Assembly (NCBI RefSeq): GCF_003570885.1
Contig: NZ_QXJC01000007.1
Location: 1 to 64,000, forward strand
Length of the DNA: 64,000 nt
Direction: 5' to 3'
DNA from: Simplicispira hankyongi
Lineage (GTDB): Bacteria > Pseudomonadota > Gammaproteobacteria > Burkholderiales > Burkholderiaceae_C
A program made the translations under genes and the position numbers. Every line of letters starts with the position of its first letter. Within the stretch, counting starts at the first letter, position 1. The notes below the pieces were generated by a model, which was not told the DNA's origin, searched no databases, and saw only the letters and a program-made list of their open reading frames with translations. Below, piece after piece: positions 6,741 through 63,500 of the stretch.

Positions 6741-6786
6741 TAGATAGCTATCAAGGCAAGGCCTATAAGCGCTGGCGGCCTAAAAT
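6741..6786 (+). repeat. Dispersed ~43-bp palindromic repeat, copy 1
   Basis: This is a diverged member of the repeat family whose halves read approximately ATAGCTGYTAGCGCTT and TAAGCGCTAGAGGCYATTTT, about 43 bp in total. Here the second half is clearest (TATAAGCGCTGGCGGCCTAA). It is intergenic, between the rpsQ terminator and the 3' end of the GNAT gene. It aligns to the other copies without gaps. Confidence 0.6.
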
Positions 6787-6812
6787 GCCTAAAAATTAAC
6801 AGCGCCTGAAGG

Positions 6813-7286
6813 CTACAGGATGCTCGCTTTGAGGTAGTGTGCGCCGGGAATAGGGTTGTGGTAGTACGGCGGAATTTCGCAAAACCCGAGTTCCTGGTAC
6901 AGCGCGCGCGCGGACTCCATATCGTCCAGCGTATCGAGCAGCACGCTTGCATATCCGCCCTCGCGTGCGGCGTCTAATGCAGCCTCCGCCAGTTGCCGCC
7001 CCAGGCCAAACCCCCGAAATGCCTTGCGAACAAAAAGACGCTTCATTTCTGCCGCATTGGCGTAGTCGGCGCTGTCCAAGGGACGCAATGCGCAGCAGCC
7101 TGCCGGTGCACCATCGACCAGCGCCAACAGCCAGGCCCCGCGCGGTGGGGCATATTCACCCGGCAGGTTGCTGAGTTCTTCCTGGAAATTCTGGAAACCC
7201 AAATCAACGGACAGGCTGGATGCGTATTCCTCAAATAGCTCTCGCAGTGCCGGAACATGGTCGGCGCCAGGGGCGTTGAGAATCAT
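6813..7286 (-). CDS. GNAT-family N-acetyltransferase
   Basis: GNAT enzymes move the acetyl group of acetyl-CoA to an amine; the substrate cannot be told here. From the ATG at 7286 the protein has 157 residues and opens MILNAPGADHVPALRELF. The acetyl-CoA pyrophosphate loop is RKAFRGFGLGRQL (pattern Q/RxxGxG/A), followed by the usual MESARALYQELGFCEI segment. The frame is open upstream to 7460, but that part (hydrophobic, then basic) does not resemble a GNAT, so I took the internal Met. No strong Shine-Dalgarno was seen. Confidence 0.85.
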   Translation of the reverse strand: MILNAPGADHVPALRELFEEYASSLSVDLGFQNFQEELSNLPGEYAPPRGAWLLALVDGAPAGCCALRPLDSADYANAAEMKRLFVRKAFRGFGLGRQLAEAALDAAREGGYASVLLDTLDDMESARALYQELGFCEIPPYYHNPIPGAHYLKASIL

Positions 7287-7601
7287 CACGGAAGGGTTCT
7301 GCACGGGCGGATTCAGGGAGCTGGAACGCGTACCAGTGTAAAACAAGCCTTTGCGTGTCCCTGCAGGTCTATTCGCGACCCAGATATACCAGGCCGGCAA
7401 CCGCCACTGCGTACCGGCAGCAGTTGCAAGGCTTGCCACGGTAGCGATCGCAACAAACAAAACTATAAAATTAATAGCTGCAGGCGCTCTATTGGTAAGC
7501 GCAAGAGACCATTTTTACTAAAAATTAACCTGCGAAAGGATCTTGCCCAGCGCCTTCCCCGGCTCTGATCTGGGCCAGGCCAGAACCCTACTCAATGGCG
7601 C
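7287..7601. other. Intergenic 315 bp between GNAT and tlpA-like gene
   Basis: It holds one dispersed repeat copy at 7461-7520. Next to it the minus strand has an open frame of about 58 codons, fused in frame ahead of the acetyltransferase, that encodes a hydrophobic segment (VAIATVASLATAAG, then WRLPAWYIWV). This could be the stump of a lost small membrane protein, but it is too short to identify. Nothing else was recognised. Confidence 0.4.
7461..7520 (+). repeat. Dispersed ~43-bp palindromic repeat, copy 2
   Basis: The family core runs from AATAGCTG at 7473 to GAGACCATTTTTA at about 7517: AATAGCTGCAGGCGCT, then TAAGCGCAAGAGACCATTTT. Outer A/T-rich flanks (AAAACTATAAAA and ATTTTTACTAAAAA) extend it. 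It lies intergenic, 81 bp downstream of the tlpA-like gene stop. Confidence 0.75.
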
Positions 7602-8105
7602 TCAGGCTTCTGCGAGCAGCTTTTCTATGAGTTGGTGCAGCTCATCGAAATTGGGTGGACCGACATAGGTTTTCACGATTTCGCCACGCTTGTTCACGAG
7701 GTACGTTGTCGGTGTGAGCTGTACATCGCCCCAGGCTTTGGCAATCGCACCGGTATTGTCGAGCGCGACCTGGAAGGGAATTTTGCGTGTCTCGACGAAG
7801 TTCACGACATAGCTGGGCGGGTCGTAATTCATGGCCACGGCGAGGGTGTCGTAGCCGCGTGCATGGTATTTGTGGTGGGTGGCAATCAGCTCTGGCATTT
7901 CGGCCACGCAGGTCGTGCAACTGGTGGCCCAGAAATTGACCAGCGTGACTTTGCCCCGCAGGTCCTCGGTGCTTAGCTTGCTGGCATCAAGCAGCACGAA
8001 TGTCGATTGTGGCGCGGGCTTGGGCGAAGTGTTCAAGAACAGCCAAGTGCCGATCGCTGCAAACGCGACCACCGCCAGGACTGTCCAAACCGTCTTCGTA
8101 CGCAT
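7602..8105 (-). CDS. TlpA/ResA-type membrane-anchored thioredoxin-like protein
   Basis: Predicted thiol-disulfide oxidoreductase acting on the outer side of the inner membrane. The start at 8105 (MRTKTVWTVLAVVAFAAIG) gives 167 residues with one N-terminal membrane anchor at 5-25. The redox motif is C-T-T-C at residues 63-66 within NFWATSCTTCVAEMPEL, and a cis-Pro segment LTPTTYLV follows. The CTTC dipeptide differs from the CEPC or CPPC typical of ResA/TlpA, so the redox potential may differ. Family members serve cytochrome c maturation or oxidative stress; neighbours give no further hint. Confidence 0.88.
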   Translation of the reverse strand: MRTKTVWTVLAVVAFAAIGTWLFLNTSPKPAPQSTFVLLDASKLSTEDLRGKVTLVNFWATSCTTCVAEMPELIATHHKYHARGYDTLAVAMNYDPPSYVVNFVETRKIPFQVALDNTGAIAKAWGDVQLTPTTYLVNKRGEIVKTYVGPPNFDELHQLIEKLLAEA

Positions 8106-8274
8106 GCGCCACCCCGAGTAAATTCCAAACCGCCATTGTGCGCCACGCGGCGGCACTGCGCTGAGATTGGCGCGCGGCCCCTTTGGTTCCCAGGTTCATT
8201 GAGATCGCGTGCAGGTTCCCAGAGCGCTTGGCCGCGGGCCGCCTTTAACAGGGCCGCGTGGCCATAATCGGGCC

Positions 8275-8808
8275 ATGTTTTTACGCGCCCTCCTGGTTTT
8301 TTGTCTGTTTTCGAGCGGGCTTGCTGCTTGCGGTCCGGCGCTGGAGTGGCGCAGCCTGCCGCTGCCAGAGCTGGGCATGCAAGTGAGTTTGCCGTGCAAA
8401 CCCGATCGCGTCGAGCACAGCGTGGAGCTGGCAGGCCAATCCGTGCAGGTGATCATGCAGGGTTGTGGCGCGTCGGGCCTCACCTTTGCCGTGGCTTGCG
8501 CCGTGCTGGCCGAGCCTTCGATGGCCGGTGCGGCGCTTGCACACTGGCGTGCCGCAGTGCTTGCGGCCGCACAGGCGCGTGATGCCAAAGACAGCCCGTT
8601 CCAACCCGCTGGTGGACTGGGCCTGCCTCAGGCAGTGCGAACCAGTGCCATGGGGCGCCTGCCCGGCGGCGGCGCCATGCAGATGCAGGCGGCCTGGTTT
8701 GCCCGGGTGCAGCATGGCGCGGTGCGCGCCTGCCATGCCATGGTGTATGGCAGCGAACTGCCAGCGGCGACGGCTGACGCATTTTTCGAAGCCCTGGTGT
8801 TGCGGTGA
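8275..8808 (+). CDS. Putative lipoprotein of unknown function
   Basis: From the ATG at 8275 the product has 177 residues. The N-terminus is a lipoprotein signal with a lipobox ending LAAC (Cys 19), so the mature protein should be lipid-anchored. The remainder has no motif I recognise; it contains a conserved-looking patch ALEWRSLPLPELGMQVSLPC and an acidic/alanine-rich middle. CATAAT at 8263-8268 lies only 7 bases before the start, so if it is a -10 box the mRNA leader would be nearly absent. It abuts an MFS pseudogene downstream. Confidence 0.7.
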   Translation: MFLRALLVFCLFSSGLAACGPALEWRSLPLPELGMQVSLPCKPDRVEHSVELAGQSVQVIMQGCGASGLTFAVACAVLAEPSMAGAALAHWRAAVLAAAQARDAKDSPFQPAGGLGLPQAVRTSAMGRLPGGGAMQMQAAWFARVQHGAVRACHAMVYGSELPAATADAFFEALVLR

Positions 8809-9480
8809 GCCTTCTGGCGCCCCGGGCGGCAGTGTTGGTCTCCCTGCCCTTGGCGGCTGCCCGCTTCCTTTCGGCGCTGTTGCGTGCTGTGACGGCGGCC
8901 TTCGCACCCATGTTGGCGCAGGTGTTCACACTGAGCGGGGGGAGCTGGGGCTGCCCTTGGGTGCTTACTTTCTGGGCTTTGCCGCACCCCAATTGCCGCT
9001 CCGCCACGGCTCAATTGCCACGGACCGCGCAAGGTGCTTCTGGCCTTTCTGGGGGGCGTGGTGGCGGGCTGCCTGGTGTTTGCGCAGGCCACCGGTTTTT
9101 CCGGTCTTCTGCTCGGGCGGGTGCTGTTTGGCGCCGGTATTGACGCCTGCCCGATGGCACCTCTGACAGGTGACCGACTCTGGTACGGCGCCCGCGGCGC
9201 AATTGTGGGTGAATTCATGGATGCTGATGGCCGGCTCACTCAGCATGGTGGCGTCTACCCCGCCCGCCGTGGTGATGGCGTTTGACGCACAGGTGGCGGG
9301 GCGTGGGCGTTCGGCTTACAACCTGATGGTGTTTGTTGGCGAGTTTGTCTTGCAGTAGAGCATTGGCCTTGCAGTCGATGCCTTTAGCGCTGTGGGTTGG
9401 ATGCAACTGGCCGCGTTCCGGGCAGCGCTTGGCCTCTGCCTTGCCTGTAATCTGGCGGCCTGCGTGGTTCGTGCGGATAG
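8805..9480 (+). pseudogene. Degraded MFS transporter
   Basis: Fragments of one major facilitator protein can be read in order but in different frames. The N-terminus (ALLRAVTAAFAPMLAQVFTLS) is in the frame of 8805. GLPLGAYFLGFAAPQLPL follows in another frame near 8945. AFLGGVVAGCLVFAQATGFS and LLLGRVLFGAG are in a third from 9034. NSWMLMAGSLSMVAST then lies in the frame of 9170. That last frame continues to VGEFVLQ, is stopped by TAG at 9356-9358, and resumes SIGLAVDAFSAVGWMQLAAF. MVAST runs straight into PPAVVMAFDAQVAGRG, so the middle helices appear deleted. The stop probably replaced a Trp codon (TGG to TAG). The gene cannot make a functional transporter. Confidence 0.8.
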
Positions 9481-9515
9481 CAGGCCGGCCATAATGATCT
9501 GTAAGCGTCTTTTGC

Positions 9516-9959
9516 ATGAACACTCTCATTCTTCTCATCGCCCACGCCCCGCTAGCGCATGCGGCTCGCGCGTGTGCACTGCACGTGTTTCCCGATTGCG
9601 GGGATGCGGTGCGCGTGCTCGACGTGCGGCCTGATGCCGCTCCGGAGGCAAGTCTCCAAGAGGCCAAGGCATTGATCGCCGATGCCGCCGAGCGCCCCTT
9701 GCTGGTGCTCACCGACCTCTTCGGCGCCACACCCTGCAACATTGCCCAGCGCTTGGTGGAGGGCCGCAGCGGCGCGTGCCTGGTCACGGGCTTGAACCTG
9801 CCCATGCTGCTGCGCGCTGTGAGCTACCGCGCAGAAGCGCTTGATTTGCTGGTGCAGCGTGCCCTGGTGGGAGGTACCCAGGGTGTGATGCAAGTGGCAG
9901 TGCAAACACCGCAAAAAACCGTACACAACACCCATGATCAAGACCCGCAAGACCATTAG
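9516..9959 (+). CDS. PTS EIIA component, mannose family
   Basis: A soluble EIIA domain that accepts phosphate from HPr. It has 147 residues, starting MNTLILLIAHAPLAH, with the phospho-acceptor His at residue 10, as in E. coli ManX. The fold motifs LLVLTDLFGATPCNIA and VTGLNLPMLLRAV are clear. It overlaps the HPr gene by 26 bp. No EIIB, IIC or IID gene is nearby, so it probably works in regulation rather than sugar import, as proposed for similar clusters in betaproteobacteria. Confidence 0.92.
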   Translation: MNTLILLIAHAPLAHAARACALHVFPDCGDAVRVLDVRPDAAPEASLQEAKALIADAAERPLLVLTDLFGATPCNIAQRLVEGRSGACLVTGLNLPMLLRAVSYRAEALDLLVQRALVGGTQGVMQVAVQTPQKTVHNTHDQDPQDH

Positions 9960-10203
9960 CAACCAGCTTGGCCTGCATGCCCGCGCTTCGGCCAAACTCA
10001 CCAAGGTGGCCGCCGCATTCCCGTGTAGCGTGTGGATGAGCCGGGGCGAACGCCGCATCAATGCCAAAAGCATCATGGGCGTGATGATGCTGGCCGCAGG
10101 CATGGGGGCCGAAATCGAAATTGAAACCGATGGCCCACAGGAGCAGGAGGCCATGGACGCGTTGCTGGCCATGATCGACGACAAATTCGGAGAAGGGCAA
10201 TAG
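9934..10203 (+). CDS. ptsH: Phosphocarrier protein HPr
   Basis: HPr passes phosphate from enzyme I to EIIA. The 89-residue product has the active His at residue 15 (NQLGLHARASAKL) and the regulatory Ser at residue 46 (INAKSIMGVMML), the site used by HPr kinase in species that have it. The start overlaps the EIIA gene. ptsI begins 52 bp downstream. Confidence 0.96.
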   Translation: MIKTRKTISNQLGLHARASAKLTKVAAAFPCSVWMSRGERRINAKSIMGVMMLAAGMGAEIEIETDGPQEQEAMDALLAMIDDKFGEGQ

Positions 10204-10255
10204 CCATGCACTATGCGCATCCCGTAGCGCAGGTCCGTGGCTGGAGCTGCCGCAT

Positions 10256-12037: not shown

Positions 12038-12039
12038 TT

Positions 12040-12330: not shown

Positions 12331-12414
12331 TCGCTCAAGGGCTGCTTGATGGGCCGTGAAATGCCCGGTGCAAGACTGTTGGACGGTTCCTGTGCGCCGC
12401 CGCCTGGGCGGCGC

Positions 12415-13395: not shown

Positions 13396-13410
13396 GGCTA
13401 CGTGGTGGAG

Positions 13411-14417: not shown

Positions 14418-14440
14418 TGTGTCAATTTACTTCCCAATTG

Positions 14441-14476
14441 ATAGCTGTATTGTGATATGCCGCAAGCGATAGACGC
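14441..14476 (+). repeat. Dispersed palindromic repeat, decayed copy 3
   Basis: ATAGCTGT at 14441-14448 and CAAGCGATAGACGC at 14462-14475 keep the family spacing, but the centre is degenerate. It lies between the divergent ybeD and atp operons. Confidence 0.4.
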
Positions 14477-14607
14477 AACCATGGTGCGGACGTTTAGATC
14501 TGTGCACGAGCAGCACATGCAAGCCAAGTTGGCCGTGGAACAACAACATGGGATGGGCAACCCCAATGCATCATGTGAAATTTTGGTGATGCTCGCGGGT
14601 TTTTACT

Positions 14608-14613: not shown

Positions 14614-14624
14614 GAGAGGCTTTT

Positions 14625-15134: not shown

Positions 15135-15149
15135 GAGAAGAGTTGTCCG

Positions 15150-21880: not shown

Positions 21881-21924
21881 CCACACAAAAGAAAACCGCC
21901 CTTGGGCGGTTTTCTTTTGTGTGG
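21881..21924. terminator. Terminator after the atp operon
   Basis: A 21-bp perfect inverted repeat, beginning CCACACAAAAGAAAACCG on the left at 21881 and mirrored at 21904-21924, with only two unpaired bases between. It would form a very stable hairpin with a U-rich right arm (GGTTTTCTTTTG), usable from both strands between the convergent atp and TPM operons. Confidence 0.88.
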
Positions 21925-21984
21925 CAATAAATGCGTAAAAACAGGCATTGACGCCTACCCCATATACCTGAAAAGCTATCCTTT

Positions 21985-22509
21985 TTATAGCGCATCAGAG
22001 GCAATGACGGGCGTATCCGGTAGCTCGTTGTCGGTACGTGCCAAGCCTGCAGAGTGCGTCTCCAGCAACTCGGACACCTCGTCGATCGCCTGGTTGAGCG
22101 CCTCTTCAAAGCGTTCCGACCGAAGCGTCTCGGCCATGCGCGCGATCAGCGCACTCCATACCGGCATCGGCACCTGGCGTGCCAAGGCGCGGTCCGCCAC
22201 GATTTCGATGGAGCGTTCGGCGAGCAGCAGGTAAATTAAAACGCCGTTGTTGTGCTCGGTGTCCCAGACCCGAAGGGAGCCGAACAAGCTGATGGCCCGT
22301 TCCCGGGCGCGCGCATCGCGCCACACATAACGCCAGGGAAGCGATGCCTCCAGACAAATGCGAATTTGGCCGCTGTGGCGTGTTTCACTCTGCGCCACGC
22401 GGGCCGCGAGCCGCTGCATGGCGCTACCACGCAGGCTTCGTGGCAGCCGGCCGCTGCCAAGCCACTGGTGCTTGAGAAGTCTTGCCAGGCGATCGAATAA
22501 GCTGCCCAT
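21985..22509 (-). CDS. TPM-domain protein
   Basis: A 174-residue soluble protein without signal peptide, resembling the short TPM-domain partner found next to YgcG/LemA genes; I see the fold segments ETRHSGQIRICLEASLPW, RARERAISLFGSLRVWDTE and NGVLIYLLLAERSIEIVAD. The function is unknown; TPM proteins have been linked to membrane-protein repair and acid-phosphatase-like activity in plants. It starts 2 bp after the previous stop in the lemA-ygcG-like operon. Confidence 0.8.
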   Translation of the reverse strand: MGSLFDRLARLLKHQWLGSGRLPRSLRGSAMQRLAARVAQSETRHSGQIRICLEASLPWRYVWRDARARERAISLFGSLRVWDTEHNNGVLIYLLLAERSIEIVADRALARQVPMPVWSALIARMAETLRSERFEEALNQAIDEVSELLETHSAGLARTDNELPDTPVIASDAL

Positions 22510-22511
22510 GC

Positions 22512-23390
22512 TCACCAGTCCCCTGACGCGCCGCCGCCGCCGAAATCACCGCCACCGCCCGAAGAAAATCCACCGCCAGACGAGGAGCCGCCGCCACCCC
22601 AATGGGAGCCGCCACCACCGCCAACCCATGGCGATCTGCTTGCGCCGGTGACAAGCAGGACGAACAGCGCGGCACCGATCGCTGCCAGCAGCGAGACCAG
22701 GAGGCTCGCCCCAAACACAAAAATAGCCAAACCCGTGCCTGCACCCAGCAGCAGTGCCCCGAGGCGCTTGCCAAACAGGGCGCTCACTATTTGGCTTGCA
22801 CCCAGTACGGCAAAAAGCACGATGCCACCTATGTCCAGCCAACTCGACTGCGCGGCCGGGGCCGATCCGCCAGGCGCTGGCTCGGGCAGAGGCTCGCCCG
22901 CAATACGCGCGGCAAGCTGGTCAATTGCAGCATTGAGACCGCCGGCAAAATCGTTATCGCGAAACTTGGGCTTCATGGCCTGGTCGATGATGCGGGCCGC
23001 AGCCAGGTCGGGAATCGCGCCCTCAAGAGCCTTGGCCACCTCGATGCGCATCTTGCGGTCTCGCTTGGCGACGACGATGATCAAGCCGTCGCCCACGTCA
23101 GGCCGGCCAATTTTCCAGGTGTTGCCGACCCGATTGGCAAACGAAGCGATGTCTTCTGGTGCCGTGCTGTCCACCATCAGCACGACCAGTTGCGTGCCTT
23201 CGCGCTTTTCAAGCTCGGTGAGCCGAGCTTCCAGGCTGCCAGTCTGCGCCGCGTCCAGGGTGTTTGTCTGATCGAGCACATGGGCTGTGAGAGCGGGGAC
23301 GGGCAGCAGTGCCTGCGCCCAACCAGAAAGCGGTGAAAATGCTATTAAAAAAATAGCTGCTAGCGTATACCTTATAAGCGCTAGAGGCAT
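22512..23390 (-). CDS. YgcG-like TPM-domain membrane protein
   Basis: Order from the ATG at 23390: signal peptide MPLALIRYTLAAIFLIAF ending near AQA (residue 27); TPM domain about residues 30-160, with LTELEKREGTQLVVLMVDS and RPDVGDGLIIVVAKRDRKM; two membrane segments about 185-245; and a glycine/serine-rich tail (repeats of GGGGS/GGGF) of about 40 residues. It has 292 residues; an upstream in-frame ATG at 23414 is an alternative. The signal-peptide codons lie within a dispersed repeat (23335-23396). Operon with lemA. Confidence 0.85.
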   Translation of the reverse strand: MPLALIRYTLAAIFLIAFSPLSGWAQALLPVPALTAHVLDQTNTLDAAQTGSLEARLTELEKREGTQLVVLMVDSTAPEDIASFANRVGNTWKIGRPDVGDGLIIVVAKRDRKMRIEVAKALEGAIPDLAAARIIDQAMKPKFRDNDFAGGLNAAIDQLAARIAGEPLPEPAPGGSAPAAQSSWLDIGGIVLFAVLGASQIVSALFGKRLGALLLGAGTGLAIFVFGASLLVSLLAAIGAALFVLLVTGASRSPWVGGGGGSHWGGGGSSSGGGFSSGGGGDFGGGGASGDW

Positions 23391-23396
23391 ATTTTC
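23335..23396 (-). repeat. Dispersed palindromic repeat, copy 4, encoding a signal peptide
   Basis: The plus strand reads ATAGCTGCTAGCGTATAC, then TTATAAGCGCTAGAGGCATA, a near-consensus copy. The minus-strand reading contains the ATG at 23390 and codes residues 1-18 of the YgcG-like protein (MPLALIRYTLAAIFLIAF). Confidence 0.8.
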
Positions 23397-23423
23397 TTTA
23401 AATTTCGTAGCCAAGCCGCGGAG

Positions 23424-26343: not shown

Positions 26344-26421
26344 CTTAATTTCTGGATGCGGCTGCGGTTGGTGCGCCGATGTCCTCTTGTTTTGTTGTAG
26401 ATTTTTTTCGGAGTCGGAAAA

Positions 26422-27612
26422 ATGGCAAAAGGAAAATTCGAACGTACCAAGCCGCACGTCAACGTCGGCACGATCGGCCACGTGGACCACGGCAAGACGA
26501 CGCTGACGGCAGCAATTGCCACCGTGCTGTCCGCCAAGTTCGGCGGTGAAGCCAAGGCCTACGACCAGATCGACGCGGCTCCGGAAGAAAAGGCCCGCGG
26601 CATCACGATCAACACGGCTCACGTGGAATACGAAACGCAGAATCGCCACTACGCCCACGTGGACTGCCCTGGCCACGCCGACTATGTGAAGAACATGATC
26701 ACCGGTGCCGCCCAGATGGACGGCGCCATCCTCGTGTGCTCGGCCGCTGACGGCCCAATGCCCCAGACGCGCGAGCACATCCTGCTGGCCCGCCAGGTCG
26801 GCGTGCCCTACATCATCGTGTTCCTGAACAAGTGCGACATGGTCGACGACGAGGAGCTCCTCGAACTCGTCGAAATGGAAGTGCGCGAACTCCTCGACAA
26901 ATACGATTTCCCTGGCGACGACACCCCGATCATTCGCGGCTCCGCCAAGCTCGCCCTGGAAGGCGACAAGGGCCCTCTGGGCGAGCAAGCCATCATGAAG
27001 CTCGCTGAAGCCCTGGACACCTACATCCCCACACCTGAGCGTGCCGTGGACGGCGCCTTCCTGATGCCCGTGGAAGACGTGTTCTCCATCTCCGGTCGTG
27101 GCACCGTGGTCACGGGCCGTATCGAGCGCGGCGTCATCAAGGTCGGCGAAGAAATCGAAATCGTCGGCATCAAGGACACCGCCAAGACCACCTGCACCGG
27201 CGTGGAAATGTTCCGCAAGTTGCTCGACCAAGGCCAAGCTGGCGACAACGTCGGCCTGCTGCTGCGCGGCACCAAGCGCGAAGACGTCGAACGCGGCCAA
27301 GTGCTGTGCAAACCCGGCTCGATCAAGCCGCACACGCACTTCACCGCTGAGGTGTACGTCCTGTCCAAGGACGAAGGCGGCCGCCACACGCCGTTCTTCA
27401 ACAACTACCGCCCCCAGTTTTACTTCCGTACGACGGACGTGACGGGCGCGATCGAGTTGCCTGCCGACAAGGAAATGGTCATGCCTGGCGACAACGTGTC
27501 GATCACGGTCAAGCTGATCAACCCCATCGCCATGGAAGAAGGTCTGCGCTTTGCTATCCGCGAAGGCGGCCGCACCGTCGGCGCGGGCGTTGTTGCCAAG
27601 ATCATTGCTTAA
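26422..27612 (+). CDS. tuf: Elongation factor Tu, copy 2
   Basis: The same 396-residue EF-Tu as 5-1195, with [13 protein letters not shown] and NKCD motifs. The nucleotide sequences agree from ATG to TAA as far as I compared them. Identity stops 2-3 bases outside the frame: GGAAATGG against AAAAATGG at the start, TAAACCC against TAAAGCA at the end. This copy sits in the tRNA-tufB-type operon, with tRNA-Trp 8 bp downstream. Confidence 0.99.
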
Positions 27613-40176: not shown

Positions 40177-41562
40177 ATGAAGCCATCGGCGACGACCGAT
40201 TCGGATCAGACCCCCGCTGCCGGTACGCGCTCGGGCAGCCTGAGTGCGCTGCTGCAGCTTGCTGCAAGCGGCCTGCTCCAAATACGCAAAGGGCGTTCTG
40301 GCGCCGTAGCGCTTGACGGCGCCGCGCCTGGCTTGCGTCCAGGCGCGCAGGCCCTCCTGTACCACGTGCTGCGCCACCTGGGACTGGCAGAGGCGCTGCG
40401 CAGTCGACTTGCACCGCGCACGCCACCGCCAGCGGCCGACGCCTTGCTCTGCACAGCGCTCGCGCTGGCCGCGGCACCCGAGGACATGCCCTATGAAGGG
40501 TTCACGCTGGTCAACCAGGCAGTGGAGGCCGCCAAAGGTGATGCTGCCACACGCAAGCAAGCCGCGTTTATCAATGCCTGCATGCGGCGGTTTTTGCGCG
40601 AGCGCGATGCCTTGCTGGCTGCCGTGGCAGCAGACCCCATTGCACGATGGAACCACCCGCGCTGGTGGATTGCCCGCATGCAGAAAGAGTGGCCGGACGA
40701 TTGGCAAAGCGTGCTTGCTGCCAACAACTCCCAGGCACCCATGGTGCTTCGAATTAATGGGCAAAAAACCACGCTAGCGCAATATATGAAAGCGCTTGAA
40801 GCTATCAATATCAGAGCGAATGAGCAGCCGCCTCATGGTGTGGTCCTTGAGCGTGCTGTAGCCGTGCACCATCTCCCTGGCTTTGCAGAAGGTGTGGTGT
40901 CGGTGCAAGACCTATCGGCACAGAGAGCCGCGCCCTTGCTGCTTGCTGGTTTCCCTCCCGGTGCGCAGCTGCGGGTACTTGATGCCTGTGCAGCGCCTGG
41001 AGGCAAAACTGCACACTTGCTTGAATGCGCCGGAACCAGCGCGCAGATTCGCGTTACCGCGCTCGATATAGACCCAGTCCGCTGCAAGCGCATCGAGCAG
41101 AACTTGTCCCGTATCGGGCTGCAAGCGCAGGTGCTGGCGCACGATGCCGCCAAACCGCAGGATTGGTGGCAGCAGTGCTGCGCGGGTGAGCCTTTCGATG
41201 CCATCTTGCTGGATGCGCCCTGTACGGCGTCGGGTATCGTGCGGCGCCACCCTGATGTCCGTTGGCTGCGGCGGGAATCCGACATTGGGCAGCTTGCCCA
41301 AGTCCAGGCGCGGCTGCTTGCAGCGCTCTGGCCTTTGGTCAAGCCGGGTGGGCGTCTGCTGTATTGCACTTGCTCTGTCTTCCGCCCCGAGGGTGACGAT
41401 CAGATTAAATTGTTCCTTGCCCACAACAGCGACGCGCGTCTGTTGCCCTCGCCCGGCCATATCCTGCCTGCTGCGGCAGACAGTCGCAACGGGCTCCCCG
41501 ACAATGTGCACGGGGGACAGGATGGGTTTTACTTTGCCTTGCTACAAAAAATGGAGCGTTGA
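40177..41562 (+). CDS. rsmB: 16S rRNA (cytosine967-C5)-methyltransferase RsmB
   Basis: Methylates C967 of 16S rRNA with SAM. From the ATG at 40177 (AAGGA upstream) it has 461 residues. An N-terminal NusB-like domain comes first, about 20-170. The SAM motif is LDACAAPGGKTAHLLE, then DAPCTASGIVRRHPD with Cys349, and YCTCSVFRPEGD with the nucleophile Cys399. Codons at about 40763-40811 match the dispersed repeat family. The MITE ends just upstream, so its promoter may be altered. Confidence 0.95.
   Translation: MKPSATTDSDQTPAAGTRSGSLSALLQLAASGLLQIRKGRSGAVALDGAAPGLRPGAQALLYHVLRHLGLAEALRSRLAPRTPPPAADALLCTALALAAAPEDMPYEGFTLVNQAVEAAKGDAATRKQAAFINACMRRFLRERDALLAAVAADPIARWNHPRWWIARMQKEWPDDWQSVLAANNSQAPMVLRINGQKTTLAQYMKALEAINIRANEQPPHGVVLERAVAVHHLPGFAEGVVSVQDLSAQRAAPLLLAGFPPGAQLRVLDACAAPGGKTAHLLECAGTSAQIRVTALDIDPVRCKRIEQNLSRIGLQAQVLAHDAAKPQDWWQQCCAGEPFDAILLDAPCTASGIVRRHPDVRWLRRESDIGQLAQVQARLLAALWPLVKPGGRLLYCTCSVFRPEGDDQIKLFLAHNSDARLLPSPGHILPAAADSRNGLPDNVHGGQDGFYFALLQKMER
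40763..40811 (+). repeat. Dispersed palindromic repeat, copy 5, inside rsmB
   Basis: CACGCTAGCGCAATATATGA, then AAGCGCTTGAAGCTATCAAT, aligned without gaps to copy 6; the family spacer length is kept. It is read in frame as QKTTLAQYMKALEAINI. Confidence 0.6.
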
Positions 41563-46889: not shown

Positions 46890-46963
46890 AGAACCTTGCA
46901 AGCGTCCGGTGATGGCGGCGGTGAACGAGCGGCGCGGGTGGCTCAAGGGCGCGAAACACTACC

Positions 46964-47018
46964 AAATAAATAGCTGTTAGCGCTTATGAACAAAGCGCTA
47001 GAGGCTATTTTTGATGAA
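46964..47018 (+). repeat. Dispersed palindromic repeat, copy 6 (near consensus)
   Basis: ATAGCTGTTAGCGCTT, then AAAGCGCTAGAGGCTATTTT: the best-conserved copy in the window, in the convergent gap between the Hsp70-like gene and rsmI, ending 3 bp from the rsmI stop. Confidence 0.85.
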
Positions 47019-47020
47019 AT

Positions 47021-47962
47021 TCAGCTCGCCTCGCCGTCTGGCGTGGCACCGTCACGTTTCCATTGCAGGGCCGTGTCGTACAGCGTATTGCGCGATGCCC
47101 CCGTGATCTCGGCCGCTAGGCGCACGGCGGTCTTGAGGGGAAGCTCCTGCAGCAGCAGGCGCAGCACCTGCAGGCTTTTGCCGTCGTCGCTGGCCACTGC
47201 CGTGGGGTGCAGCAGCACTACGAACTCACCCCGGGAGCGCTGGGGTGAGCCCTCCAGCCATGCCGTCAGCGCCTGTGCGGGCTGGGTGGTGATCTCTTCA
47301 AACTGTTTGGTGAGTTCGCGCGCCAAAGTCACCGGGCGTTGGCCCAATACCGCCAGGGCCTGGGCCAGTTCGCCGATGCGGTGGGGGGCCTCCAGCAGCA
47401 CTACGCAGCGGGCCTCATGGGCCAGTTGCTGCGCAATCAGGGTGGCGCGTTCGGCGCTCTTGGCGGGCAGGAACCCGGCAAACACAAAACCGTCTTGTCC
47501 GCCACTGTGTGCCACGGCGCCGGCAGCACTCAGCGCGGTGGTAATGCTGCTGGCGCCGGGCAGGGGTACGGCGCGCAGCCCGGCAGCCTGCACCGCAGCG
47601 ACCAGGCGGGCGCCAGGGTCGCTGATGGCTGGCGTTCCAGCGTCGCTGACATAGGCCACACGCTGCCCCTGCTGCAAGCGCGCAATCACAGTTTGGGCAC
47701 CCTCCTGCTCGTTGTGCTGGTGCAGCGCCAGCAGCTGGGCGCCGGTTTTCTCAATACCGTAGCTGCGCAGCAAGCCTTGCGTGTGCCGCGTGTCCTCGCA
47801 GGCGATGCTGTCTGCCAGTTGCAGCACGTGCAAGGCGCGCAAGCTGATATCGGCCAAATTGCCGATCGGCGTGGCGACCACATACAAGGTGCCTTGGGGA
47901 TAATGCTGAGCCGATGCAGCGTCGCTGGCGGCGCGCAGGGCAGAAGCGAAAGAGGCGCTCAA
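47021..47962 (-). CDS. rsmI: 16S rRNA (cytidine1402-2'-O)-methyltransferase
   Basis: RsmI methylates the ribose of C1402 near the P site. Core motifs are LYVVATPIGNLADISLRAL, CEDTRHTQGLL, YVSDAGTPAISDPG and PLPGASSITTALSAAG. No in-frame Met lies before the core, so a non-ATG start is needed; TTG at 47962 gives 313 residues (LSASFASALRAASDAAS). This start and that of yraN share base 47962, on opposite strands. Confidence 0.92.
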   Translation of the reverse strand: MSASFASALRAASDAASAQHYPQGTLYVVATPIGNLADISLRALHVLQLADSIACEDTRHTQGLLRSYGIEKTGAQLLALHQHNEQEGAQTVIARLQQGQRVAYVSDAGTPAISDPGARLVAAVQAAGLRAVPLPGASSITTALSAAGAVAHSGGQDGFVFAGFLPAKSAERATLIAQQLAHEARCVVLLEAPHRIGELAQALAVLGQRPVTLARELTKQFEEITTQPAQALTAWLEGSPQRSRGEFVVLLHPTAVASDDGKSLQVLRLLLQELPLKTAVRLAAEITGASRNTLYDTALQWKRDGATPDGEAS

Positions 47963-49692: not shown

Positions 49693-50607
49693 TCAGTCGA
49701 ACCGCTTGATGAGGCTTGACGTGTCCCAGCGCTGCCCGCCCATGCGCTGCACGTCGGCGTAGAACTGGTCCACCAGTGCGGTGACTGGCAGTTGCGAGCC
49801 ATTGCGGCGCGCCTCGGCCAGCACCAGTCCCAGATCCTTGCGCATCCAGTCGACGGCAAAGCCGAAATCGAATTCACGCGCCGCCATGGTTTTGCCACGG
49901 TTATCGAGCTGCCAGCTTTGTGCTGCGCCTTTGCCGATGACGTCAAGCACCTGGGGCAAATCAAGGCCTGCGCGCTGGCCGAAGGCGATAGCTTCGGCCA
50001 ATGCCTGCACCAGGCCGGCAATGCAGATCTGGTTCACCATCTTGGTCAACTGACCGGCCCCCGATTCGCCCAAGCGGGTGAAGGCGCGTGCGAAGGCCAT
50101 GGCGAGCGGCCGAGCGGCGTCAAAAGCGGCCTGATCGCCACCGCACATCACGGTAAGCTGGCCGTTCCTGGCGCCGGCTTCGCCACCCGAGACGGGGGCG
50201 TCGATAAAAGCGAGGCCCAGCGTTCGCGCCGCGCCGTGCAGTTCGCGCGCCACCTCCGCCGAGGCCGTGGTGTGGTCCACAAAGATGGCTCCCGGCGCCA
50301 TGCCGGCAAAGGCGCCGTCGGCCCCCAAGGTCACGGCACGCAGGTCGTCGTCGTTGCCGACGCAGCAGAATACGAAGTCGGCGCCTTGCGCAGCCTCACG
50401 GGGAGAATTGGCGTGTTTTTGGCCGCTAGCGCTTGTGTACTCTGCGCACCATGCTATCGCTTTGGAAGCGGTTCGGTTGTACACCGTGACCGAATGGCCG
50501 GCGCGTGCCAAATGCCCGGCCATGGGATAGCCCATGACGCCAAGGCCCAAAAAGGCGACGTTCTTCGCAGGTGTGGCTTCGTAGGTGCGTGCAATGATCG
50601 AGGACAT
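49693..50607 (-). CDS. 3-hydroxyisobutyrate dehydrogenase family reductase (GarR/GlxR-like)
   Basis: NAD(P)-dependent beta-hydroxyacid dehydrogenase, 304 residues from the ATG at 50607. Rossmann motif FLGLGVMGYPMAGHLA at 20-34, substrate loop DAPVSGGEAGA, catalytic Lys189 in GAGQLTKMVNQ, and the C-terminal segment FAVDWMRKDLGLVL. It could reduce tartronate semialdehyde or 3-hydroxyisobutyrate; not decidable. Residues about 48-66 are encoded by a diverged repeat copy. Confidence 0.88.
   Translation of the reverse strand: MSSIIARTYEATPAKNVAFLGLGVMGYPMAGHLARAGHSVTVYNRTASKAIAWCAEYTSASGQKHANSPREAAQGADFVFCCVGNDDDLRAVTLGADGAFAGMAPGAIFVDHTTASAEVARELHGAARTLGLAFIDAPVSGGEAGARNGQLTVMCGGDQAAFDAARPLAMAFARAFTRLGESGAGQLTKMVNQICIAGLVQALAEAIAFGQRAGLDLPQVLDVIGKGAAQSWQLDNRGKTMAAREFDFGFAVDWMRKDLGLVLAEARRNGSQLPVTALVDQFYADVQRMGGQRWDTSSLIKRFD
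50416..50465 (-). repeat. Diverged dispersed repeat, copy 7, inside the GarR-like gene
   Basis: GGCCGCTAGCGCTTGTGT, then CTCTGCGCACCATGCTATCG, aligns ungapped with the reverse of copy 6: both CTAGCGCTT and GCTAT are at the family spacing. It is read within the gene as AIAWCAEYTSASGQKH. Confidence 0.5.
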
Positions 50608-50672: not shown

Positions 50673-51809
50673 TCAGACGATGACGAAGTGCTCGGTGCCG
50701 GCTGCCAGATCGGTGGTCTTTGCGCGCTGGCTGCTGAGCTTGATCTGCAGGCGCAGGTCGTTGAGAGAGTCGGCGTTGCGCAGCGCGTCTTCGTAGGTGA
50801 TGACATTGGCTTCGAACAGGTCGAAGAGCGCCTGGTCAAAGGTCTGCATGCCGAGATTGCGGCTCTTTTTCATGATCTCCTTGATCTCGGCGACCTCGCC
50901 CTTGAAGATCAGATCGGAAATGAGCGGTGTGTTCAGCATGATCTCTACCGCTGCAGCGCGGCCCTTGCCGTCCTGCTTGGCGATCAGTCGCTGCGAGACC
51001 AGTGCGCGCAGGTTCAGCGACAGATCCATCAGCAACTGCGCGCGGCGCTCTTCGGGGAAGAAGTTGATGATGCGGTCCAGCGCCTGGTTGGCGCTGTTGG
51101 CGTGCAGCGTGGCCAGACACAGGTGGCCGGTTTCGGAGAACGCAATGGCGTGCTCCATGGTTTCGCGGTCCCGGATTTCGCCCATCAGAATCACGTCGGG
51201 AGCTTGGCGAAGCGTGTTCTTCAGTGCTGCTTCCCAGCTTTCGGTGTCGAGCCCGACCTCGCGCTGAGTCACCACGCAGTTCTTGTGCGGATGCACGAAT
51301 TCCACCGGATCTTCCACGGTGATGATGTGGCCGAAGGTGTGTTCGTTGCGCCAGTCCACCATGGCGGCCAGCGTGGTCGATTTGCCCGAACCCGTGGCGC
51401 CCACCAGGATGCACAGGCCACGCTTGGTCATGGTCACGTCCTTGAGTACCTGCGGTACGCCGAGGCCGTCAATGGTCGGCAGCGTGAGCGGAATCACGCG
51501 CAGCACCATGCCCACGCGGCCTTGCTGGATGAAGGCGTTGACCCGAAAGCGCCCGATCCCGGAGGGGGAAATGGCGAAGTTGCATTCCTTGGTGCGCTCG
51601 AAATCCGCCGCCTGCTTGTCGCTCATGATGGCGCGCGCCAGCGTCAGCGTGTGGCTCGGCGTCAGCGGCTGGGGCGAGACTTTGGCAATCGCGCCATCGA
51701 CCTTGATGGCGGGCGGGAATTCCGCCGTGATGAACAAATCGCTGCCGCCGCGGCCGACCAACAGCTTGAGCAGATCGTTGATGAATTTACTGGCCTGATC
51801 GCGTTCCAT
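50673..51809 (-). CDS. pilU: Type IV pilus retraction ATPase PilU
   Basis: Accessory retraction motor of twitching motility. 378 residues. Walker A GATGSGKSTT with Lys143; Asp box ITVEDPVEFVHPH; Walker B VILMGEIRDRETM; His box TGHLCLATLHA. PilU is separated from PilT by one gene. It lacks the PilT AIRNLIRE motif and has a longer C-terminus. Confidence 0.95.
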   Translation of the reverse strand: MERDQASKFINDLLKLLVGRGGSDLFITAEFPPAIKVDGAIAKVSPQPLTPSHTLTLARAIMSDKQAADFERTKECNFAISPSGIGRFRVNAFIQQGRVGMVLRVIPLTLPTIDGLGVPQVLKDVTMTKRGLCILVGATGSGKSTTLAAMVDWRNEHTFGHIITVEDPVEFVHPHKNCVVTQREVGLDTESWEAALKNTLRQAPDVILMGEIRDRETMEHAIAFSETGHLCLATLHANSANQALDRIINFFPEERRAQLLMDLSLNLRALVSQRLIAKQDGKGRAAAVEIMLNTPLISDLIFKGEVAEIKEIMKKSRNLGMQTFDQALFDLFEANVITYEDALRNADSLNDLRLQIKLSSQRAKTTDLAAGTEHFVIV

Positions 51810-52612: not shown

Positions 52613-53656
52613 TCAACCCGGGAAATTGTCCGGAATCTTGGCTTTGCTGCGGGCTTCGGCGGGGCTGATGATGTTGCGGCGCACCAAGTCGGTCAGGTTC
52701 TGGTCCAGCGTCTGCATGCCCACGCTGTTGCTGGTCTGGATGGTGGAATACATCTGCGCCACCTTGGCCTCGCGAATGAGGTTGCGGATGGCACTCGTGC
52801 CCAGCATGATCTCGTGCGCCGCCACGCGGCCCGAGCCGTCTTTGAGCTTGCACAGGGTTTGCGAAACCACCGCCTGCAGCGACTCGGACAGCATGGCGCG
52901 GACCATTTCCTTTTCTTCGGCGGGGAACACGTCGATGATCCGGTCGATGGTCTTGGCGGCGCTCGACGTGTGCAGCGTGCCGAACACCAGGTGGCCGGTT
53001 TCTGCCGCGGTCATGGCAAGGCGAATGGTTTCCAGGTCGCGCATTTCGCCCACCAGGATGGCGTCCGGGTCTTCGCGCAGCGCCGACCGCAAGGCAGCGG
53101 CGAACGACAGCGTCATCGGGCCGACTTCGCGCTGGTTGATCAGGCATTTCTTGGATTCGTGCACGAACTCGATCGGATCTTCGATGGTCAGCACATGGCC
53201 GTATTCGCTCTCGTTCAGGTGGTTCACCATGCCGGCGAGCGTGGTTGACTTGCCCGAGCCCGTGGGGCCGGTCACAAGCACCAAGCCGCGCGGCTTGAGC
53301 GCGAGGTCGGCGAAGATCTTGGGGGCGTTGAGTTGTTCCAGCGTCAGAATCTTGCTCGGAATCGTGCGGAACACGGCGGCGGCGCCGCGGTTCTGGTTGA
53401 AGGCGTTGACCCGAAAACGTGCCAGGCCTTCAATCTCGAACGAGAAATCGACCTCCAGGAATTCTTCGTAGCTCTTGCGCTGCGAGTCGCTCATGATGTC
53501 GTACACCATGGCGTGGACCGTTTTGTGGTCCAGCGCGTCGACGTTGATGCGCCGCACGTCGCCGTGGACCCGGATCATGGGCGGAAGGCCTGCGGAAAGG
53601 TGCAGGTCAGACGCCTTGTTTTTGACGCTGAACGCCAGCAGTTGGGTGATGTCCAC
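52613..53656 (-). CDS. pilT: Type IV pilus retraction ATPase PilT
   Basis: Main pilus retraction motor. GTG start at 53656 after AGGGAA gives 347 residues beginning MDITQLLAFSVKNKASDLHL. Walker A GPTGSGKSTT with Lys136; Walker B AILVGEMRDLET; His box TGHLVFGTLHTSS; and the PilT-specific AIRNLIREAK. Divergent from yggS with 38 bp between; that gap must hold both promoters. Confidence 0.96.
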   Translation of the reverse strand: MDITQLLAFSVKNKASDLHLSAGLPPMIRVHGDVRRINVDALDHKTVHAMVYDIMSDSQRKSYEEFLEVDFSFEIEGLARFRVNAFNQNRGAAAVFRTIPSKILTLEQLNAPKIFADLALKPRGLVLVTGPTGSGKSTTLAGMVNHLNESEYGHVLTIEDPIEFVHESKKCLINQREVGPMTLSFAAALRSALREDPDAILVGEMRDLETIRLAMTAAETGHLVFGTLHTSSAAKTIDRIIDVFPAEEKEMVRAMLSESLQAVVSQTLCKLKDGSGRVAAHEIMLGTSAIRNLIREAKVAQMYSTIQTSNSVGMQTLDQNLTDLVRRNIISPAEARSKAKIPDNFPG

Positions 53657-57639: not shown

Positions 57640-57704
57640 TCGGACAAGCAGGCAACTTTTTTCGGTTTGCGCCGTCATTCCACCTTTCCCTTCTTTTATT
57701 TTTC

Positions 57705-58127: not shown

Positions 58128-58136
58128 GGGCAGGGC

Positions 58137-59420: not shown

Positions 59421-59521
59421 TCAAAAAAATCGCTACAGGGCGTGCAGTATGTTGTCCACATCTCGCAGGCGATTGCGATGGTGTGACTTTGAAGCTTCTG
59501 ACAAGAAAGGGCAGGGAGCCT

Positions 59522-60514
59522 ATGAACGAAGTCGCGTCATCCGACCTCAAAGCCATACTGCACTCGCAGCGGGCCAATATCTACTATCTGGAACACTGCC
59601 GTGTGTTGGTGAATGGCGGGCGTGTCGAATATGTGACCGATGCGGGCAAGAAGAGCCTTTACTGGAACATTCCTATCGCCAACACTACCAGCATATTGCT
59701 GGGCACGGGTACTTCGATCACTCAGGCGGCCATGCGCGAGTTGGCCAAGGCGGGGGTTCTGGTGGGGTTCTGCGGCGGTGGTGGCACGCCGCTGTTCAGT
59801 GCCAACGAGATCGATATTGAGGTGGCTTGGCTGTCGCCTCAAAGTGAATACCGTCCCATCGAATACTTGCAGGCTTGGGTGAAGTTCTGGTTTGAAGACG
59901 AACTGCGCCTGCACGCGGCCAAGGCCTTGCAGGGTTGGCGTCTGCAGCGATTGCTGAAGGAGTGGGACACACGCACATTGCGTGAGGCCGGTTTTTCCGT
60001 GGATTTGGCGCGGCTTCAAACGCTGGTGCAACAGTTTCAGCAGCGGATTGCTCATGCTCCCGACGTGACGGCTCTGTTGACGGACGAAGCTCGCTTGACC
60101 AAAGCTTTGTTCAAGCTGGCGGTGGATACCGTGGGCTATGGCGAGTTCACACGCGCCAAACACGGCAGCGGTACCGATGCAGCCAATCGTTTTCTGGACC
60201 ATGGCAATTACCTGGCCTACGGACTGGGTGCCACGGCCACTTGGGTGCTGGGCCTGCCACACGGCTTGGCCGTGCTGCATGGCAAAACGCGGCGCGGTGG
60301 CCTGGTGTTTGATGCCGCCGATCTGGTCAAGGATGCGGCCATATTGCCCCAGGCTTTTTTGTCGGCGATGCGCGGTGACGATGAACAACAGTTTCGCCGC
60401 CAGTGCATCGAAGCACTCACGCGCAGTGAGTCGCTGGATTTCATGATCGACACGCTCAAGCAGATTGCGATCGAGACCGCCCGCATGGCCGCCAGCCCAG
60501 AGGCCAAAGCATGA
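59522..60514 (+). CDS. cas1: CRISPR-associated endonuclease Cas1, type I-F
   Basis: Spacer-integration nuclease. 330 residues from the ATG at 59522 (AGGGAG before it): MNEVASSDLKAILHSQRANI. The Cas1 of P. aeruginosa I-F has metal residues E190, H254, D265 and D268; here E189 (TDEARLTKALF), H253 (LPHGLAVLHG), D264 and D267 (FDAADLVKDA) match with a shift of one, so it looks catalytically complete. In-frame codons from 59483 were excluded. It overlaps cas3 (ATGA). Confidence 0.96.
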   Translation: MNEVASSDLKAILHSQRANIYYLEHCRVLVNGGRVEYVTDAGKKSLYWNIPIANTTSILLGTGTSITQAAMRELAKAGVLVGFCGGGGTPLFSANEIDIEVAWLSPQSEYRPIEYLQAWVKFWFEDELRLHAAKALQGWRLQRLLKEWDTRTLREAGFSVDLARLQTLVQQFQQRIAHAPDVTALLTDEARLTKALFKLAVDTVGYGEFTRAKHGSGTDAANRFLDHGNYLAYGLGATATWVLGLPHGLAVLHGKTRRGGLVFDAADLVKDAAILPQAFLSAMRGDDEQQFRRQCIEALTRSESLDFMIDTLKQIAIETARMAASPEAKA

Positions 60515-63500
60515 ACGTGCTGTTCGTTTCGCAATGCAGCAAGCGTGCGCTGACCGAAACCCGCCGCATCCTCGACCAGTTTGCCGAACGCCGTGGTGAG
60601 CGCACTTGGCAAACTTCCATCACCCAGGCCGGACTCGATACCGCGCGCAAGCTCTTGCGTGCAACGGCCCGCAAGAACACTGCCGTAGCCTGCCACTGGA
60701 TACGCGGGCGTGACCACAGCGAGTTGCTGTGGGTGGTGGGCGATGCGCACCAGTTCAACCCCGAAGGTGCGGTGCCCACCAACACCACCGCCAGCAATGT
60801 GCTGCGTACAGAAGATGAAAACGCCTGGCACCACTTGCCTCTGATGACGGCACTGGCAGCCCTGGCGGCCCTGCTGCACGACCTGGGCAAGGCCACGCAG
60901 GCGTTTCAGGACAGGCTCAAACACCTCGGCGTGCGCGAGCGCAATCACTATCGGCACGAATGGGTGTCGGTGCGCTTGTTCCAGGCGTTTGTGGGGCAGG
61001 ACGACGATCCAGGCTGGCTTCTGCGGCTGGCGGCCTGCGCAGATTCAGAGATCGATGCCGCCGCCTTCGAGGCGCAGTGGCTGGACCATGCCGCCAAGCG
61101 ATTGCTGCGCGATGGGCTGGATACCCATATCGCAAGCGACAGCACTACCAGTCCCCATAATCCGTTTCGCTGCTTGCCCCCACTTGCCCAAGCTGTCGCG
61201 TGGCTGGTGCTGACGCACCATCGGCTGCCCTGCAAGCCTGTCCTTAAAAGAGAGCGGGACCACGACGACGAAAGCGAAGAGCCTGGCCAGAAGTGGTGCC
61301 GTTTCGGCACCAAGCCACCGTTTCTCAACAGCAATGAGCTGGACGGCCTGCTCACACAAATACATGCCGACTGGAACGAGCCCCGCGAAGCGGCAGATTC
61401 CACCACCGTGCGTACTTATTGGACCTTCCCGCACGGTCTGCCCGTCGCCACGCTGCCCTGGCGCAAGCAGGCGGCACGCTATGCCCGCAAGCTCCAAGAA
61501 CTGGCCCAGGCACCCGCCAGCACATTTGTGTTGCACGACCCTTTCACCATGCATGTGGCACGCCTGTGCCTGATGCTGGCAGACCACCACTACTCCAGCA
61601 TCAGCGACGATGCGCGCCGCCAGCCGTATCGCAACCCTGGCTACCCGCTCTACGCCAATACTGTTAAAAATGATAGCTGTAAGCGCTTGCCAGATAAGCG
61701 CCATAGCCCTATTTTTAATCAAACTTTGGACGAGCACCTGCTGGGCGTACAAGCCCACGCCACGCTGGTAGCACGCTCGCTGCCCAGTTTGACGCGCAGC
61801 CTGCCCGCCCTCAAGAACCACAAGTCCCTCAAAAGGCGCAGCGCCGACGCCCGCTTTTCCTGGCAAGACCAGGCCGCCGATCTGGCTGCCAGCGTGCGGG
61901 CTCGTACCGCTGCGCAAGGTGCTTTCATCGTCAACATGGCGTCCACCGGCTGCGGCAAAACCTTGGGCAACGCACGGATCATGAATGCGCTGGCGGACCC
62001 TGCCACGGGCATGCGCTGTGCATTTGCCATTGGCCTGCGCACGCTCACGCTGCAAACCGGGCGTGTCTTCCAAAACGATCTGCTTCTGAGCGATGAGCAA
62101 CTCGCCATTCAGGTCGGTGGCGCGGCCAGCCGGGCCTTGTTTGAATACTGGGAGCAACAAGCCGAGGCCACCGGCTCCGCCTCCAGCCAGCAGCTGTTCG
62201 ATGAGGGCGGCGCCGTGCTTTACGAAGGCAACAACCAGCATCCCTTGCTACAACGGCTGACGGATGACGCGCAAGTACGTCGCCTGTTGGCGGCCCCGCT
62301 GCTCGTCTGCACCGTAGACCATCTCACTCCCGCCACCGAAAGCCTGCGCGGTGGCCGCCAGATCGCCCCCATGCTGCGCCTCATGACCGGTGACCTGGTG
62401 CTGGACGAACCCGACGACTTTGACATGGCCGACCTGCCCGCGCTCACGCGGTTGGTGCATTGGGCGGGCCTGTTGGGCAGCCGCGTGCTGCTGTCGTCCG
62501 CGACCTTGCCGCCCGCGCTGGTGGAAGGGCTGTTTCTGGCCTACCGCGCCGGGCGCGCTGTGTATCAGAAGCACCGCAGCGAGCGCCCCAGTGAGGCGGC
62601 GAACATCTGCTGCCTGTGGATCGACGAGTTCCATCACACCTCGCAAGACTGCGCCGAGGGTGCCGCCTTCCGCGAAGCACACACCCAATACGTGCACAAG
62701 CGCGTAGCCAAGCTGAAGCAGGCCGAAGTGCGGCGCCTTGCGCGGATTGCGCTGCTACCCGACAACTGGCACAACTTGAAGGAGCACGAGCGACGCCAGG
62801 ACTTTGCCCGCCTGGTGCTGGAGCAGGCGTGGCAACTGCACCAGCAGCCCCACAGCCACAGCGCAGACCCCGATAGCGGCAAGCACGTCAGCCTGGGCCT
62901 GATCCGCATGGCCAATATCGCCCCGTTGTTTGATGTGGCGCTGGCCATCTACCAGCAGGGTGCACCTGCGCCCGGTGTGCGTATCCACCTGTGCGTGTAC
63001 CACTCGCAGTTCCCCCTGCTGCTGCGCTCGGCCATCGAGCAACAGCTCGACACCCTGCTCAACCGCCGGAGCCAAGATGGAGTCGATCCGGTGCTGCAGC
63101 GCCCAGCCTTGCGTGCGCTCATCGACGCCCACCCCGAGCCCCACCACCTGTTCATTGTGCTGGGCAGCCCCGTCACCGAAGTGGGCCGCGACCACGACTA
63201 CGACTGGACCGTGGTTGAGCCTTCGTCCATGCGCTCGCTCATCCAGCTCGCTGGGCGCGTGCGGCGGCATCGGCTGGGTGCCGTGGGCGAGGTAAACATG
63301 GTGGCGCTCGACAGCAACTTGCGGCACTTCAAGGACAAGGATGGAGCCGCCTTCTGCAGACCAGGGTTTGAGACGGATTACCCGCCCTTCCAACTCAAGT
63401 CCCATCACATGCACGATTTGATGGCGCGGGAAATGCGGGGCGCTGACGCATGGGCCGTAGACGCCCAGCCCCGCGTTGCCTTGGCTCCCGGCAAGTTATT

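Follow-up and report, generated by a model that had tools for sequence, protein, structure and literature searches.

Dispersed 66-bp two-half repeat of Simplicispira hankyongi as a putative chromosome-wide DNA recognition site

The uptake sequences of Neisseria and Haemophilus are built and kept genome-wide, genes included, by biased recombination. For Acidovorax ebreus TPSY, a 2017 paper (PMC5217627) prints the motif pair GCTTAT(N)5AAGCG without a function, with 114 copies of which 107 were intergenic, 44 convergent and 4 divergent, and for Polaromonas naphthalenivorans CJ2 the motif ATAGCT(N)22CAAAAG with 125 copies (101 intergenic, 34 convergent). Repetitive extragenic palindromes (REP) carry a GTAG- or CGTC-type tag according to the title of PMC3733652, and a search of that paper for six Comamonadaceae genera found none of them named. 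The BRE of Bordetella and other Betaproteobacteria have a mean of 69% GC in Bordetella, measure up to about 90 bp and occur in tandem (PMC3110155). Here, a palindromic repeat family was analysed in a 64,000 bp stretch of Simplicispira hankyongi (contig NZ_QXJC01000007.1, positions 1 to 64,000 of the forward strand; hereafter the window), in the rest of its genome and in its relatives. Its 12-letter core was not in any of the open-access texts searched, which also held no account of the function of the repeat. Overall, we give about an even chance to the reading that the repeat represents some 600 two-fold symmetric sites in duplex DNA for a putative chromosome-wide, sequence-specific protein that serves the chromosome itself.

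A weight matrix built from 30 genome copies of the repeat was used to score the window and stretches of the genome. The eight places reported by a first-pass annotation of the window were all recovered, with matrix centres at 6767+, 7497+, 14464+, 23376+, 40782-, 46993+, 50434- and 61696+, and a ninth copy was found at 21956- (score 20.2). Scores ranged from 15.9 to 77.3, the copies at 14464 and 21956 being the weakest of the nine, while five shuffled versions of the window reached -9.1 at most. In the whole genome, AAGCGCTAGAGGC with at most one mismatch occurred at 261 places (125 + 136) compared to 6 (4 + 2) for the same pattern read backwards. The genome-wide count by covariance model and consensus that had been suggested as a check was also carried out. 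A sample of 464 kb, made up of the window and 400 kb of contig C1, contained 76 copies with a matrix score of at least 15, about one copy per six thousand bases, whereas five Markov replicates showed no place at or above -10 and the reversed sequence none at or above 5. Extrapolation of this count to 3.7 Mb would give approximately 600 copies. The covariance model evaluated no more than 150 of the 1752 initial candidates, so that its genome count is a lower bound, and all 150 were at E ≤ 4.1e-11. A search against Rfam at gathering thresholds returned six tRNAs and nothing else. The repeat family proposed by the first-pass annotation is real.

The conserved unit was about 66 bp and not the 43 bp originally proposed. 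In order, its consensus consisted of CTATNNAATT, ATAGCTGCTAGCGCTT, a free spacer of 7 bp, AAGCGCTAGAGGCC and ATTT, followed by more AT-rich sequence. The unit has two-fold symmetry, with a pair of 13-bp half-sites (AAGCGCTAG.GGC) that are near-inverted and 7 bp apart, and with AT-rich tracts on the outside. The information content was about 61 bits over 71 columns; TAGC at -22..-19 and GCG at +2..+4 were nearly invariant and the 7-bp spacer was almost free. The GC content was 28% for the consensus and 41% on average for the copies. The whole two-half unit was the rule, since none of the 64 right and 2 of the 73 left half-site matches with a score of at least 18 were solitary. Partial sites seen by eye had only the left part and were found in hrpA of genomes G303 and G315 and in purL of G299 and G318 (G numbers denote the genomes compared). 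The frequency of AAGCGCTTG and other cores outside the copies was near expectation. Pairing between the arms in 77 intergenic copies was 505 of 770 compared to 491 in shuffles (P 0.025), with per-genome P values of 0.24 for S. hankyongi, 0.021 for G294, 0.014 for G225 and 0.25 for G010. The excess over shuffles was about 1 to 6%, and no excess over shuffles was found in 27 genic copies. The letters were conserved far more than the pairing between the arms.

Most copies were found past gene ends, with a median of 28 bp from the stop codon in 46 co-directional gaps. In the 464 kb sample, 20 of the 76 copies were genic. The 104 copies of S. hankyongi and G225 were distributed over 46 co-directional, 27 convergent and 4 divergent gaps and 27 genic places, and those of G294 over 28, 10, 2 and 17, respectively. 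Over 664 kb of S. hankyongi and G225, the 27 convergent and 4 divergent copies faced 31 and 63 such gaps of at least 80 bp (Fisher P 1.7e-7, a rough value since a gap can contain two copies). Genic copies were read in both orientations as first described, 14 in that of the gene and 13 opposite, but the different reading frames described with them did not hold, since 21 of 27 favoured one relative frame (12 of 17 in G294). The favoured frame probably avoids stops within the motif. An element acting at the RNA level, either a bidirectional terminator or a hairpin at mRNA 3' ends, would agree with the dyad, the closeness to stop codons and the enrichment between convergent genes. RNA folding of the copies gave z values from -4.18 (window 46955-47025), also in its favour, to +0.75 (7459-7529), where the copy folded no better than shuffles. 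The weak covariation and the balanced orientation in genes argue against it as well, and copy-bearing gene ends had no fewer ordinary terminator-like hairpins, which makes this explanation very unlikely. The hairpin counts with and without a copy, in which the copy itself may be counted, were 14/34 and 25/85 for co-directional and 9/24 and 10/26 for convergent gaps of S. hankyongi, with no sign that copies replace ordinary terminators.

In two of the three samples, the distances between copies were more uniform than expected by chance. For 67 copies in 400 kb of S. hankyongi the coefficient of variation (CV) of spacing was 0.643 compared to 0.92 in an intergenic-aware null, with none of 3000 draws as low, and for 57 copies in 400 kb of G294 it was 0.742 compared to 0.936 (P 0.029). 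Gaps shorter than 1500 bp between copies numbered 4 in S. hankyongi with 12.6 expected and 7 in G294 with 9.6 expected, and one close pair was found at locus L147. No replication-strand bias was found by local GC skew (31 leading, 36 lagging).

The comparison of orthologous loci with and without a copy, also suggested initially, was run for six genic copies that had at least one copy-less ortholog. Copy 355205 was left out of the count as its sole aligned copy-less relative (G319) aligns poorly there, and copy 351844 as it lies at a gene end. The identities of rsmB and the dehydrogenase gene had Pfam support, whereas dsbB, hrpA, purL and rpsQ are names that we presume from reading the translations, and gene 350201 is taken in the same way to be methylmalonyl-CoA-mutase-like. 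Four of the six copies, in rsmB, the gene read as dsbB, gene 350201 and the dehydrogenase gene, showed no net change of protein length. The gene read as dsbB had balanced 3- and 4-base gaps, gene 350201 aligned over 71 of 71 columns with seven relatives, and the dehydrogenase proteins were ungapped against their relatives. As these four copies are length-neutral, the sites are spelled within existing codons and no DNA was inserted. Third positions of gene 350201 differed from G303 at 17 of 23 sites within the copy compared to 104 of 434 for the flanks (P 1.4e-6), and nearly all differences were those in which S. hankyongi had the consensus letter (22 to 1 against locus L188). Among bearers of the rsmB copy, codons were identical, given an identical residue, at 496 of 694 in the copy compared to 8257 of 15504 elsewhere, and the copy ranked first of 415 windows for codon identity, the 19-residue window being our choice. 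In the dehydrogenase gene, low-information columns were not more changed (26/115 compared to 1090/4698). The first-pass annotation had placed the conservation at the level of DNA or RNA and not of the protein; constraint on the DNA was borne out.

A survey of 26 genomes of the genus (model matches at 1e-8, at most 150 candidates scored per genome) showed that 23 had the repeat while G299, G311 and G318 had none. In a tree of one 4.7-kb locus with midpoint root, the three copy-less genomes formed one clade (100/100), grouped with the copy-bearing G312 and G302. At 19 copies of S. hankyongi, 79 of 112 comparisons with bearers scored at least 10 compared to 0 of 17 in the copy-less clade. This count covered places that were alignable or flanked and used a single locus from each genome; copy 61696 was left out, as was a copy of G307 near 7497 (61.0) which lies past its anchor. 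One faint remnant (score 11.8) and no replacement motif were found in 400 kb of G299. The rsmB copy of G307 was letter-for-letter that of a Giesbergeria metagenome assembly (L181). At family level, the exact core was present at least once in 70 of 299 genomes, one or two being the chance level; 20 genomes had seven or more cores, and the reversed pattern reached at most six. Core counts were patchy within genera (47, 0 and 0 in g122; 3, 27 and 0 in g89). The same architecture was found in G010 of another genus, where 100 kb selected around exact matches contained 23 copies. The repeat does occur in other Comamonadaceae, as the first-pass annotation had stated.

Among 72,556 plasmid records 2 matched (Diaphorobacter, Acidovorax), and among 50,697 phage records none, in searches that were insensitive, since identity to the query is 79% or more for only 2 of the 76 copies of S. 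hankyongi. The two plasmid loci (L328 and L329; Diaphorobacter HDW4A and Acidovorax DW039) are on large plasmids with one copy each in a co-directional gene gap. An exact-pattern scan of IMG/VR, with a pattern that would match only 2 of the 76 copies, found 5 contigs. In four of these (L212, L214, L215 and L216) a phage rha gene or homologue carried the copy at its 3' end, the gene being identified by Pfam for L212 and by DNA similarity for the other three.

The first-pass annotation had considered a REP-like hairpin moved by a RAYT transposase plausible and saw no RAYT gene in the window. The latter was correct. The genome has one Y1_Tnp (PF01797) gene, on a different contig (L031, gene 1168-1920, G000:C13), and its locus has no copy of the repeat and carries a GGTCTGACC palindrome. 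This RAYT-type gene has a different palindrome, GGGGTCTGACCCC, on either side, and the two probably form the true REP/RAYT pair of the genome. PF01797 was present in 22 of the 26 genomes, including all three copy-less ones, while G141 (99% complete) had 97 model matches without it; G308, G310 and G320 were also copy-bearing without it but are only 61-67% complete. Copies were found at 7 of 30 PF01797 loci (90 kb in all), about the general density. The end tags were not of GTAG or CGTC type, as the consensus has ATAGCT at the left and AGAGGC at the right; single copies read GTAGC. PF01797 thus does not track the copies in the genus, and RAYT was rejected as the mover of the repeat. A REP element is favoured by a repetitive, mainly extragenic palindrome and by the single RAYT-type gene in the genome. 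The independence of RAYT presence from copies across the 26 genomes, the other palindrome at the RAYT gene of S. hankyongi, the lack of clustering in pairs (4 gaps below 1500 bp with 12.6 expected), the even spacing, the weak arm covariation and the length-neutral genic copies leave this origin barely credible.

The repeat might also descend from a non-autonomous mobile element that some enzyme moved in an ancestor and that has since been fixed, with genic copies produced by short templated overwriting (ectopic conversion) from other copies. This explanation is unlikely, though less so than the REP element. Remnants of this kind would agree with a 66-bp consensus that has sharp bounds and recurs in another genus, the patchy counts within genera, the block-like change in gene 350201 and the few intermediates. 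The even spacing speaks against them, as do the site letters kept at orthologous positions. In addition, the best of 35 copies were 88% identical (a pair 2.1 kb apart), the next pair 85%, and copies of G294 at most 76%; as copies are seldom much alike, this speaks against recent transposition.

Another possibility is DNA uptake or self-marking, in which a transformation receptor or another self-recognition step would prefer the site and biased recombination would build and keep sites, also in genes. It would explain the in-place rewriting in genes, the even spacing and genome-wide over-representation (the spacing in G225 alone not being significant), the half-sites with core and AT-rich tracts, and the erosion of sites in one whole clade. 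ComEC, the sole competence gene examined, was found in 23 of the 26 genomes. It was rejected as the lost factor since G299 and G318, the two copy-less genomes that are nearly complete, have it, although loss of just a receptor would be conceivable. Solitary half-sites were not enriched (0/64 right, 2/73 left), and the site exceeds known uptake sequences in length and is sparser. We therefore hold this explanation to be improbable, if less so than mobile remnants. Just as tentatively, the repeat might be a genome-wide self-marking or uptake site of Comamonadaceae, a 66-bp two-half duplex signal that would be the longest of its kind, rewriting codons and even residues of conserved genes in place and dropped whole when a lineage loses its recogniser.

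The data fit a recognition site in duplex DNA under selection, or under a drive resembling the one behind DNA-uptake sequences. If a chromosome-wide DNA-binding factor such as a nucleoid organiser recognises the repeat, it would need a site about every 6 to 7 kb; selection would keep the sites and sometimes build them in place, and the copy-less clade may have lost the factor, after which its sites would have eroded. Several observations weigh against this. The sequence analysis turned up no such protein, nor any binding or phenotype. Two of the six genic copies did differ in length from copy-less orthologs: the gene read as purL was net 15 nt shorter in the copy-less G299 and G318, and the gene read as hrpA had a variable linker. 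Low-information columns of gene 350201 were also more changed than the flanks (37/119 compared to 768/5600), which fits templated overwriting as well as site-by-site selection, and high-information columns of the rsmB and dsbB copies were not more diverged from G299 than elsewhere. Few matches were intermediate (9 of 76 with scores of -15 to 15 in 400 kb), the evenness of spacing in G225 was not significant (P 0.10), gain and loss of copies are not separable without an outgroup, and the weak pairing excess possibly reflects some structural constraint. If recognition by such a protein is true, a common bacterial family would have an unnamed chromosome-wide recognition system with hundreds of sites, the copy-less clade would serve as a natural knock-out in which gene content could reveal the missing protein, and there would be a strong signal that protein-coding genes bend to keep a DNA motif. 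The case is also a warning not to call dispersed palindromes mobile before length-neutral copies in genes are checked.

The nine copies of the window were placed by gene calls which, outside the records, were made with a custom heuristic script. The copy at 6729..6799 (+, matrix score 51.7) is between the convergent rpsQ end and a GNAT gene, and the rpsQ end has its own terminator-like hairpin. The copy at 7459..7529 (+, 71.4) is between co-directional genes of the redoxin and GNAT families (Pfam). The weak copy at 14426..14496 (+, 15.9) is between divergent genes and has stronger same-place copies in G294 (46.7) and G312 (34.9), and the weak copy at 21924..21994 (-, 20.2), absent from the earlier list, has a stronger one in G307 (53.8). 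The copy at 23338..23408 (+, 77.3) is between co-directional genes for a TPM-domain and a LemA-family protein (Pfam), within the longest open reading frame (ORF) yet ahead of the called gene start. The copy at 40750..40820 (-, 34.1) is inside a gene for an rsmB/F-type rRNA methyltransferase (Pfam) and was present at the equivalent position in all 10 copy-bearing relatives examined and absent from G299, with equal protein length. The copy at 46955..47025 (+, 68.6) is between convergent genes by the heuristic calls. The copy at 50402..50472 (-, 34.8) is inside a 3-hydroxyisobutyrate-dehydrogenase-like gene (NAD_binding_2 / NAD_binding_11) whose protein has the same length in relatives without the copy, and that at 61658..61728 (+, 46.2) is inside a long open frame on its other strand, with no Pfam match when tested. 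Thus, where four copies in genes had been noted, genic copies do occur but number three of nine (40782, 50434 and 61696) by the heuristic calls.

Other repeated sequences were also seen. Window positions 3-302 and 26420-26719 are identical EF-Tu stretches (open frames 5-1195 and 26422-27612) and represent an ordinary duplication of tuf, and 51253-51401 and 53121-53269 form a 149-bp direct repeat of 72% identity within neighbouring, probably related genes. A second short intergenic motif, the 11-mers CGTTGCAAATC / ATTTGCAACGC, was present in 7 of 220 gaps of 400 kb of the genome, and GCGCAGC was in excess in its intergenic DNA (42 gaps compared to 5 in the reversed control); both are unrelated to the repeat.

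The uptake sequences of Neisseria and Haemophilus are likewise genome-wide, even, present in genes by in-place change and lost by lineages, but they are short single motifs in higher number, whereas the repeat is a long two-half site with rare solitary halves. REP elements are likewise palindromic, repetitive and mostly past gene ends; the repeat differs in having no tie to RAYT, little pairing covariation, even spacing and codon rewriting. BRE are also present in Comamonadaceae, mostly intergenic and in some cases in genes, but the repeat, with its 28% GC consensus of about 66 bp in single copies, is set apart from them by the description in PMC3110155 and not by sequence. In the CJ2 motif of P. 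naphthalenivorans (PMC5217627), the left hexamer equals the left conserved block of the repeat and the right hexamer misfits the consensus at that distance, so that kinship with the repeat would be a guess. The closest system is the A. ebreus motif. The same paper gives a motif pair and not a 66-bp site, spacing, rewriting within genes or loss, but its letters and spacing, judged from the printed string, equal the centre of the consensus of S. hankyongi, and its gene context is nearly the same.

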